Shown piece by piece: positions 3,946 through 6,019 of a stretch of 7,000 bases of DNA (positions are counted from its first letter, which is position 1; each line of letters begins with the position of its first letter). The notes beneath the pieces were generated by a model that worked only from the letters and a program-made list of their open reading frames with translations, searched no databases and was not told the origin of the DNA. A program made the position numbers and the translations under genes. The stretch lies in NCBI GenBank assembly GCA_012520575.1, contig JAAYOB010000048.1, forward strand, positions 1 through 7,000. The letters are read 5' to 3'. This stretch comes from Candidatus Stramentimicrobium fermentans. GTDB lineage: Bacteria > Atribacterota > Phoenicimicrobiia > Phoenicimicrobiales > Stramentimicrobiaceae.

Positions 3946-4052
3946 AAGTAGAAGGTTGTGCATCATACGCCATGATTTTTTTAAGTATAATTTCCATGAA
4001 AAACAAAGGCGGTGTTCCTGTAAGATAGCAATGGGATTTTTGCCTTAAACGC

Positions 4053-4081
4053 TTGAGTTTACATATTTTCTTGTGTATGAT
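4053..4081 (+). promoter_or_regulatory. Candidate promoter of the macro/vWA pair
   Basis: TTGAGT (4053-4058) and TATGAT (4076-4081) are spaced by 17 bases. This would give a leader of about 105 bases before the macro gene start at 4194. Upstream there is also a perfect TATAAT at 3986-3991, but without a well-placed -35 box. The rest of 3946-4193 contains no gene that I can support. Confidence 0.45.
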
Positions 4082-4133
4082 GATACCGGAAAATCCTTAC
4101 GAATGCTTTACGGGCATACTCTTTTATCATGAT

Positions 4134-4145
4134 TTGATCGATCAA
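4134..4145. promoter_or_regulatory. 12-base perfect palindrome in the macro gene leader
   Basis: TTGATCGATCAA is a perfect palindrome 48 bases before the macro gene start and downstream of its candidate promoter. It could be an operator for the XRE-like domain encoded by the next gene, acting as a roadblock. A 12-base palindrome can also occur by chance, and only one copy is seen. Confidence 0.25.
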
Positions 4146-4193
4146 TTTATCCTGCCTATCAATACCGGACAATGGAAACAAAGGGGGAGCATT

Positions 4194-5240
4194 ATGCCAT
4201 TATATATTGTCAGAAACGATATAACACAAATGAAAGTGGACGCGATCGTCAACGCCGCCAACAGGTCGCTTCTTGGCGGCGGCGGTGTGGACGGCAGCAT
4301 CCATCTTGCCGCTGGTCCAGCTTTGCTGGCGGAGTGTAAAACGCTTGGCGGCTGCCAAACCGGCAGCGCGAAAATTACCGGCGCGGGCAATCTGCCGTGC
4401 AAGTATGTGATTCACGCAGTTGGGCCCCGTTGGGCGGGAGGCGGTTTTGGAGAGCGTGAACTCCTCATTTCCTGCTACCGTACCGCCCTTGAGCTGGCAA
4501 AAGAAAACCAATGTGAAACGGTTGCTTTTCCGCTCATATCTTCCGGTGCCTATCACTATCCCAAAGACCAGGCGCTGAGAATAGCCGTTGATACAATCAG
4601 CGAATTTTTGCTTGAAAACGAGATGACCGTTTATCTGGTGATCTACGTTAAAAAATCATATCAGATTGATGGGAAACTGTTCGCTGACCTTGCCAAATAC
4701 ATTGATGATAATTATATAGATGAACAGGTCGTCCAATATCCTAAGTTTATACAGCGAAGAGAAGCGTTTATAGAGGGAGAACAGCCATGCGATTTTTCTG
4801 TTTACGAGGCGAGCGAAGCGTTTGAAAGATTCACGCCCCCCGTGCCGGAGGCTGCCACTTACCCGATGGCCAGGTCGCTGGATGACGCGCTCAATCAAAT
4901 GGATGAGAGTTTTTCTGAAATGTTGTTGCGCAAAATCGATGAATGCGGCATGACGGACGCGGAGTGCTACAAAAAGGCAAACATTGACCGAAAACTCTTT
5001 TCCAAAATCCGCAGCGATAAAATGTATAAGCCCTCAAAACCCACGGCAATCGCCTTTGCTATTTCCCTTGAGCTGTCTTTAGATGAAACCAGGGAAATGC
5101 TTATGAAAGCCGGATTTGCCCTCTCCCGCTCCAACAAGTTCGATATTATCATTCAGTATTTTATCGAAAACAAGAATTACAATGTCTTTGAAATCAACGA
5201 GGCCCTGTTTGCCTTTGACCAGAATTTGCTGGGGGCTTGA
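4194..5240 (+). CDS. Macro domain (ADP-ribose hydrolase type) fused to XRE-like HTH domain
   Basis: A 348-residue cytosolic protein. ATG 4194 is preceded by GGGGGAG (4183-4189); the reading frame stays open back to a TTG at 4053, but that start has no site and the extra 47 residues fall outside the macro fold. Residues 1-175 are a MacroD/YmdB-type macro domain: NAAN at 20-23, GGGGVDG at 28-34, HAVGPRW at 74-80 and [11 protein letters not shown] at 113-123. Asn23 and Asp33 match in spacing the catalytic Asn and Asp of MacroD enzymes, which remove ADP-ribose from proteins or deacetylate O-acetyl-ADP-ribose. After a linker (about 176-232), residues 235-310 resemble an XRE-type helix-turn-helix ([20 protein letters not shown], then [22 protein letters not shown]), followed by a helical tail to 348. 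The fusion suggests an ADP-ribose-sensing regulator or a targeted hydrolase. A vWA gene follows 119 bases downstream on the same strand. Confidence 0.88.
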
Positions 5241-5260
5241 TAGGGGAAATAGATTAACAA

Positions 5261-5284
5261 TTTGTCGCCTGCCAAGCGACCAAA
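5261..5284 (+). other. Small hairpin between the macro and vWA genes
   Basis: GTCGC (5264-5268) pairs with GCGAC (5276-5280) around a 7-base loop, and flanking TTT/AAA can extend it past a bulge. No T run follows, so it is unlikely to be a full terminator. In the rest of 5241-5346 I found no convincing promoter, which favours read-through from the macro gene. Confidence 0.3.
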
Positions 5285-5359
5285 CCGAATGCGTTTTTCT
5301 CTATGCTATGGCTGTAAGGTAAACCCCGAACAGTCATATTTTATTTGGAGGCAGAAAAA

Positions 5360-6019
5360 ATGAAAAAGAACCTAACAGAAATCGTATTCATTCTGGACCG
5401 CAGCGGCTCGATGAGCGGGCTGGAAAAAGACACCATCGGCGGCTTTAACGCCATGATTGAGAAACAGAAAAAAGCGGAGGGCGAGGCGCTTATTTCCACC
5501 GTCCTTTTTAACCATGAAAGCGAAGTTATTCATGACCGGGTGGGTGTTCAAACCATTCAATCAATGACCGATAAAGACTACATGGTAGGCGGCTGTACCG
5601 CGCTTTTGGACGCCATCGGCCAAGCCATTCACCATATTGGCAATGTTCATAAGTACGCGCGTGATGAGGATGTGCCGGAGCATACCATTTTTGTTATCAC
5701 AACAGACGGAATGGAAAACGCGAGCCAACGCTATTCCAGCAATAAAGTTAAGCAGATGATTGAGCGCCAGAAAGAAAAACACGGCTGGGAATTTTTGTTC
5801 CTTGGCGCCAATATTGACGCTGTTGAAACAGCAAGAGGCTTTGGCATCGCCCAAGATCGCGCGGTCAATTACCACGCCGATAGCGTGGGGACTCAGCTTA
5901 ACTATCAGGTGGTAAGCGACGCCATTTGCGCCGTCCGCTCCAGCGCGCCCCTTGATGCCGATTGGAAAAAGCGCATTGATGAAGACTATGAACAGCGTGA
6001 AAGCCAATACAAGAAGTAA
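5360..6019 (+). CDS. Stand-alone von Willebrand factor A (MIDAS) protein
   Basis: A 219-residue soluble protein made almost entirely of one vWA domain. The metal-ion-dependent adhesion site is complete: DRSGS at 13-17 (Asp13, Ser15, Ser17), Thr80 in GGCTALLDAIG, and Asp116 in TTDGMENAS. There is no signal peptide, membrane anchor or sortase motif, so it acts in the cytosol, unlike adhesin-type vWA proteins. Cytosolic bacterial vWA proteins usually scaffold Mg2+-dependent complexes, for example with MoxR-type ATPases or in stress and TerD-type systems. ATG 5360 is set by GGAGG (5347-5351). Weak similarity of the opening to proteins encoded beside kinase, phosphatase or ADP-ribose genes is only an impression. 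The nearest partner here is the macro/HTH gene 119 bases upstream, so the two are probably one unit. No MoxR ATPase is in the window. Its binding partner is unknown. Confidence 0.9.
   Translation: MKKNLTEIVFILDRSGSMSGLEKDTIGGFNAMIEKQKKAEGEALISTVLFNHESEVIHDRVGVQTIQSMTDKDYMVGGCTALLDAIGQAIHHIGNVHKYARDEDVPEHTIFVITTDGMENASQRYSSNKVKQMIERQKEKHGWEFLFLGANIDAVETARGFGIAQDRAVNYHADSVGTQLNYQVVSDAICAVRSSAPLDADWKKRIDEDYEQRESQYKK

Follow-up and report, generated by a model that had tools for sequence, protein, structure and literature searches.

ADP-ribosylation-countering systems centred on an ADP-ribosylglycohydrolase (ARG) combine vWA genes, ARG genes and ADP-ribose-type HTH regulators with an occasional NADAR or macro gene and no linked transferase (PMC9503650, section 3.8). 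Their regulators are of the Nudix or WYL type and are described as negative, and the systems occur in actinobacteria, planctomycetes and proteobacteria (PMC9503650). The stretch of DNA analysed here, a window of 7 kb that is the complete contig G000:C40, encodes a macro domain protein with a C-terminal HTH (P0001, macro-HTH) and a vWA protein (P0002). Macro domains are known both as hydrolases and as passive ADP-ribose readers.

The locus has the vWA/predicted chaperone gene of the ARG-centric systems; it has neither their ARG core nor a Nudix-HTH or WYL-HTH regulator, no ARG being found in the window by Pfam, and for these two reasons we did not file it among them. The Nudix sensor domain that marks NrtR was likewise not found in P0001 by Pfam. 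No DarT ADP-ribosyltransferase domain was identified in the window, which leaves a DarTG-like reading unsupported there; an earlier reading of the bare sequence had seen no ADP-ribosyltransferase or toxin in the window, and neither its open reading frames nor Pfam revealed one. The macro-HTH/vWA pair was not found described in the open-licence literature searched, which is weak evidence of absence.

Domains, distribution and origin of the two genes

The features of the locus are collected in Table 1. Pfam finds only Macro in P0001 (E 5e-44), and the nearest solved relatives of this domain are MacroD1 and MacroD2 (E 1e-62 to 1e-58), so that the MacroD-type assignment made from the sequence alone stands, including the intact Asn23 and Asp33. 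Asp33 is invariant and Asn23 present in at least 90% of a 53-sequence alignment of the macro-HTH family. Both residues are found in 106 of 126 fused macro-HTH proteins, whereas about 19 lack one of them; Asp33 is replaced by Cys in 11 and elsewhere by Ser or Glu, or it is the Asn that is replaced. The frequent retention of both residues, together with MacroD enzymes being the closest relatives, would suit a macro domain that serves mainly to hydrolyse ADP-ribosyl bonds or deacetylate O-acetyl-ADP-ribose, placed on DNA by its HTH to remove ADP-ribose from nucleoid proteins or DNA itself, with the vWA protein as a helper. We regard this as improbable, as most of the proteins that lost one residue kept their vWA partner and the operator described below usually occurs once per genome, at a promoter. 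Since macro domains without Asp33 mostly retain vWA, conservation points to ligand binding as the conserved need of the macro domain and to hydrolysis as optional.

Table 1. Features of the macro-HTH/vWA locus, in positions of the 7-kb window.
Feature	Position	Strand	Remarks and basis
Macro-HTH gene P0001	4194..5240	+	348 aa; candidate activator of transcription and sensor of ADP-ribose
MacroD-type macro domain, residues 1-165	4194..4688	+	Pfam, MacroD1/D2 profile matches, family conservation
Cro/C1 (XRE) HTH, residues 237-309, includes recognition helix	4902..5120	+	AF2, VIA-align, conservation
Two more conserved helices past the HTH, residues 310-348, possibly for dimerisation	5121..5237	+	Helices at 90-100 and 106-115 in the AF2 domain model
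Dyad TTGTCGC-CTGCCAA-GCGACC, putative macro-HTH operator	5262..5281	+	Conserved before vWA genes
-10 element TATGCT, 30 bp from dyad centre, no -35	5302..5307	+	Conserved spacing, -35 depletion
vWA mRNA leader hairpin	5307..5338	+	Fold z -1.6, weak; homologous leaders fold better
vWA ribosome-binding site GGAGG	5347..5351	+	Sequence
vWA/MIDAS gene P0002	5360..6019	+	219 aa; proposed main output of dyad promoter; PHROG 7371; MIDAS invariant

The linker of P0001 (about residues 179-226) was modelled at low confidence, and the C-terminal domain was modelled by itself using AF2 with 53 sequences, giving a mean pLDDT of 93.4. In VIA-align this model reached Z scores of 9.3 for SinR, 8.9 for 434 Cro and 8.5-8.6 for P22 c2, with the Cro/C1 matches covering about model residues 12-84, which correspond to residues 237-309 of the protein. 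The AF2 model thus has the five-helix Cro/C1 fold, and the HTH that had been proposed within residues 230-348 proved to be of the XRE/Cro-C1 kind. A Foldseek search of the model against PDB and BFVD returned no match with E <0.001, though many Cro/C1 folds appeared at a probability of 0.97-1.0. HTH_26 of Pfam is matched by 15 of 53 family members; the DUF7353 match of the window's own C-terminal domain was set aside as a chance match, the assignment needing the fold. With a mean column identity of 82%, the C-terminal domain is better conserved than the full alignment, for which the value is 58% with the variable linker included.

P0002 matches PHROG 7371 (E 5.5e-58), and the Pfam VWA families match it beneath their curated cut-off. 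It starts at ATG 5360, and its end at 6019 had been placed correctly in the sequence-only reading, which had also described it as a stand-alone MIDAS protein downstream on the same strand; the MIDAS residues (DxSxS with D13, S15 and S17, then T80 and D116) are invariant in 39 sequences. A weak match to vWA-TerF-like was obtained for 8 of these 39 members. In an untargeted look at the recurrent neighbours, neither TerB, TerC, TerD or TelA nor a kinase with PP2C was noticed.

Adjacency of the two genes across genomes, on which the proposed pairing depended, was borne out. A macro-HTH query yielded 80 homologue loci in GTDB genomes, a set biased to close relatives. By tblastn, 68 of them have vWA on the same strand further downstream and none has it upstream; two of the remaining loci end too early to judge and ten have no vWA nearby. 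The gap between the genes is below 200 bp in 29 loci, and other genes often lie between them in the rest. An ArsC/glutaredoxin-family gene recurs in this position (L016-L078; 20 loci at first count), and YjbR, Fic, HD and methyladenine glycosylase genes were seen near the same loci. Because the 80 loci are biased towards close relatives, a sample of 196 Clostridia genomes was drawn, in which HTH module and vWA occur together in 52, the HTH module alone in 6, vWA alone in 1 and neither in 137 (Fisher p 2e-39, uncorrected for phylogeny). A vWA gene is in fact present in 14 of 18 genomes that at first seemed to have none at the locus; some of these genes are adjacent and others lie on a different contig. 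The module was also found on viral contigs and plasmids. Judged by this distribution, macro-HTH and vWA are a conserved pair.

The window contig differs from the genome to which it is assigned. Its GC content is 48%, compared with 36-42% in 15 other sampled contigs (one sampled stretch being masked in this comparison), and its tetranucleotide correlation is 0.57, compared with at least 0.86 for the sampled contigs. Same-genus and same-family genomes have neither the HTH part of P0001 nor the 647-aa membrane protein of the contig, and P0002 is missing from them apart from a single partial vWA match. The contig is probably foreign, either mis-binned or recently acquired. The genome holds a second vWA gene, 40% identical (L222 3296-4959, on G000:C44), that directly follows an ARPP-1 gene (PF20208, E 2e-100), lacks the dyad and has a DndB-like gene upstream. 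As the window contig is probably mis-binned, this second vWA gene may belong to another organism and was kept out of the evidence.

The dyad promoter and leader of the vWA gene

K-mer counting gave a very strong signal in the region before vWA. It found no shared site or dyad before the macro gene, and autoregulation as the main role was dropped for that reason. The element before vWA is an inverted repeat with the consensus WTGTCGC-N7-GCGACC, present with at least 9/10 core matches before 121 of 129 vWA genes, with TAnnnT at +30 in 118. In 95 of 116 dyads, the distance from the centre to the start of a TATAAT-like -10 is exactly 30 bp despite variable spacer sequences, and matches to a -35 are rarer than in shuffled sequence (mean 1.6 vs 2.6 of 6 positions). 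In the window, where the dyad is the sole match in its genome, the -10 agrees at four of six positions and places the predicted transcription start near 5314, with the dyad centre near -42. The sequence-only reading had given vWA no clear promoter of its own; this has to be revised, since a promoter that has a 20-bp inverted repeat and no -35 occupies 5262-5307 and the dyad is kept before the great majority of vWA genes. A role of the dyad at the RNA level was rejected because it lies upstream of the -10.

A class II activator site, such as that of lambda cI at PRM, is a dyad centred near -42. The vWA promoters have this layout, with the dyad near -42 of the start predicted from the -10, and no -35. 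Having fewer -35 matches than shuffled sequence, they should be weak unaided, and the strict 30-bp spacing across varying spacers is typical of an activator that touches the polymerase and would be unneeded for a repressor. Both properties speak against the converse arrangement, in which macro-HTH represses vWA through the same operator until an ADP-ribose ligand releases it. Such repression would agree with the negative Nudix and WYL regulators of the ARG systems (PMC9503650), with the overlap of the dyad and the expected -35 position, and with a leader that guards against read-through, as would suit a gene kept off; we nevertheless consider it rather unlikely.

This leader was examined in 90 homologues. 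Their read-through RNA folds better than shuffled sequence, with a median z of -4.8, and the fraction of the vWA ribosome-binding site left unpaired is 0.19 in read-through RNA vs 0.70 in RNA from the gene's own promoter, a difference that arises partly since the longer RNA offers more pairing partners. Shuffling only the spacer, which is absent from the own-promoter RNA, raised the accessibility from 0.20 to 0.36 (p 1e-7), so the spacer itself seems to be selected to pair. In the window, the first nucleotides of the 5' arm of the hairpin would be missing from own-promoter RNA. As the hairpin hides the ribosome-binding site in read-through RNA at most loci, vWA is probably not simply co-transcribed.

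The apparent guarding of vWA against accidental expression, and the occurrence of the module on viral contigs and plasmids, might also be expected of a toxin-antitoxin pair with a toxic vWA protein and macro-HTH as antitoxin and autoregulator. This is the least probable of the explanations that we considered: most loci have no dyad before macro-HTH and hence no autoregulated bicistron, the two genes are unlinked in several genomes, and vWA gave no PADLOC match.

Regulon and candidate reader of the dyad

The composite of dyad and -10 was found at 81 sites in 391 Clostridia genomes, compared with 2 for a reversed control pattern. Among 35 newly fetched sites, nearly all from genomes outside the earlier samples, 31 precede vWA, 2 an ARG gene and 2 something else. 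Genomes with the dyad usually hold a single site, at a promoter. ARG genes with a dyad promoter occur in a minority of loci only (L090, L186, L214/L196, L229, L233, L303 and L305); on the viral contigs L229 and L233, macro-HTH, dyad, ARG, dyad and vWA follow one another in a row. A SIMPL-ARG-DnaJ arrangement lies behind a dyad in L210, and vWA-SIMPL operons were found at two loci, L217 and L216, the second of which has a NADAR gene immediately upstream. A dyad with a perfect TATAAT at +30 precedes a type I restriction HsdR gene (L269 56-3220, G188:C5), a single case that could be chance. No NAD-biosynthesis gene was recognised under a dyad promoter.

Several further sites were recorded in passing. 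By eye, nucleotide-metabolism-like genes follow the row on the two viral contigs (L229 1256-4024, L233 1858-4632), and a dyad site stands before an HsdS-like fragment in L313. Two near-identical dyad promoters precede short lipoprotein-like repeated genes (L212 2976 and 3614, G208:C67). Extra dyads in L211 and L213 have no -10 at +30 and were taken as chance.

Four lines of evidence connect the dyad with the HTH module. First, 37 of 38 genomes with the dyad also carry the module. Second, in divergent pairs of vWA and an HTH gene that lacks a macro domain, the dyad lies between the two (L174-L178). Third, vWA genes unlinked to macro-HTH in the same genome are still preceded by the dyad (G101, G102, G103, G105 and G106). 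Fourth, the operator changes with the recognition helix. The 132 promoters with GTCGC on both sides mostly go with the usual recognition helix, whereas L179, with the helix VNRKVISKLRIK, has two GTCTC-N7-GAGAC sites and L182, with the helix LPRQTMSKIKCV, has one GTCAC-N7-GTGAC site, each locus with TAnnnT at +30; both altered dyads are changed symmetrically and keep their geometry. One of the two half-sites is altered at four loci that carry the usual helix. The two variant loci point to a natural swap in which operator and recognition helix change together, and from the four lines combined we infer a protein-DNA contact in which the HTH module binds the dyad.

If the dyad were instead the site of a different transcription factor, unlinked and common in Clostridia, macro-HTH and vWA would be functionally linked neighbours and nothing more. 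Of the six genomes with HTH but without vWA, three have no dyad near the HTH gene (G160, G282 and G307), the usual helix being present in at least two of the three, as such a factor would allow. The near confinement of the dyad to genomes with the HTH module, its position in the gap of divergent HTH/vWA pairs and its symmetric alteration along with the recognition helix make this explanation very improbable.

A macro domain is missing from some of the HTH proteins that go with the dyad (L174-L178, L185), so sensing by a macro domain would not always be needed. In L182, an exonuclease-BRCT protein (1222-2925) carries the same HTH module in fused form, and a separate RNase_T exonuclease gene (4023-4748) stands behind the variant dyad promoter. 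An 851-aa protein of L191 (262-2817) combines a related HTH with a YgjP-like metallopeptidase and an IrrE-like peptidase domain.

We consider it likely that macro-HTH is an ADP-ribose-sensing one-component activator of vWA and of some ADP-ribose-removing genes, with contact, ligand and activation as the inferred elements. The macro domain would bind ADP-ribose, O-acetyl-ADP-ribose, ADP-ribose-1''-phosphate or an ADP-ribosylated end, and the XRE HTH of P0001 would bind the dyad GTCGC-N7-GCGAC. Bound at about -42 to a promoter without a -35, macro-HTH would bring in RNA polymerase in the manner of lambda cI at OR2/PRM. Its main target would be vWA, with an ARG or SIMPL gene under the same promoter in some strains. 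With its ribosome-binding site hidden in read-through RNA, vWA would at most loci be translated mainly from its own, signal-controlled promoter, and the products of the regulon may bind and clean up ADP-ribosylated molecules. The earlier suggestion of a DNA-binding macro protein that reports ADP-ribose status gains support from the conserved dyad promoter, its coupling to the HTH module, the activator-type geometry and the ARG genes with the same promoter.

With slightly less confidence, we favour the broader view that these proteins form an undescribed activator family with a macro-domain sensor, a 17-bp operator and an ADP-ribose-response regulon across Clostridia, phages and plasmids, which would comprise vWA, ARG, SIMPL and occasionally type I restriction genes. 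Comparison across genomes establishes the fold, the pairing, the dyad, its spacing, the regulon and the two loci with co-variation. If the broader view is true, ADP-ribosylation or free ADP-ribose compounds would elicit a dedicated genetic response in many gut Clostridia, and with the operator defined, a simple reporter could test the inducing signal directly. The use of a macro domain for sensing in a bacterial transcription factor would then be new, as far as the open-licence literature shows, and the vWA proteins that recur unexplained beside ADP-ribose enzymes would gain a handle.

Comparison with described systems

With MacroD1/2 and YmdB hydrolases, macro-HTH shares a macro domain with the active-site Asn and Asp, but its family is fused to an XRE HTH and some members have lost the Asp. 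DarT-DarG resembles the present locus as a two-gene unit with a macro domain in bacteria and phages; here, however, vWA is the second gene and the first joins its macro domain to an HTH. Like NrtR, a Nudix-HTH regulator of NAD metabolism, macro-HTH joins an ADP-ribose-binding domain to an HTH in a regulator, with macro in place of Nudix as the sensor and with different targets.

The promoter architecture is closest to that of lambda cI at OR2/PRM, which from general knowledge shares the Cro/C1 HTH, a dyad at about -42 and a poor -35. Macro-HTH differs from cI in carrying a macro effector domain rather than a self-cleaving peptidase, in having usually one site per target promoter and in showing no autoregulation.

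In gene content, the ARG-centric systems are similar, with vWA, an ADP-ribose-linked one-component HTH regulator, ARG, occasional NADAR and macro genes, and no linked ADP-ribosyltransferase. They differ from the present unit, which has a macro domain as its sensor, a core of macro-HTH and vWA with ARG as a minority extra, a promoter that looks to be of the activator type, and Clostridia and some other Bacillota as hosts. The macro-HTH/vWA unit may work like the ARG-centric systems.
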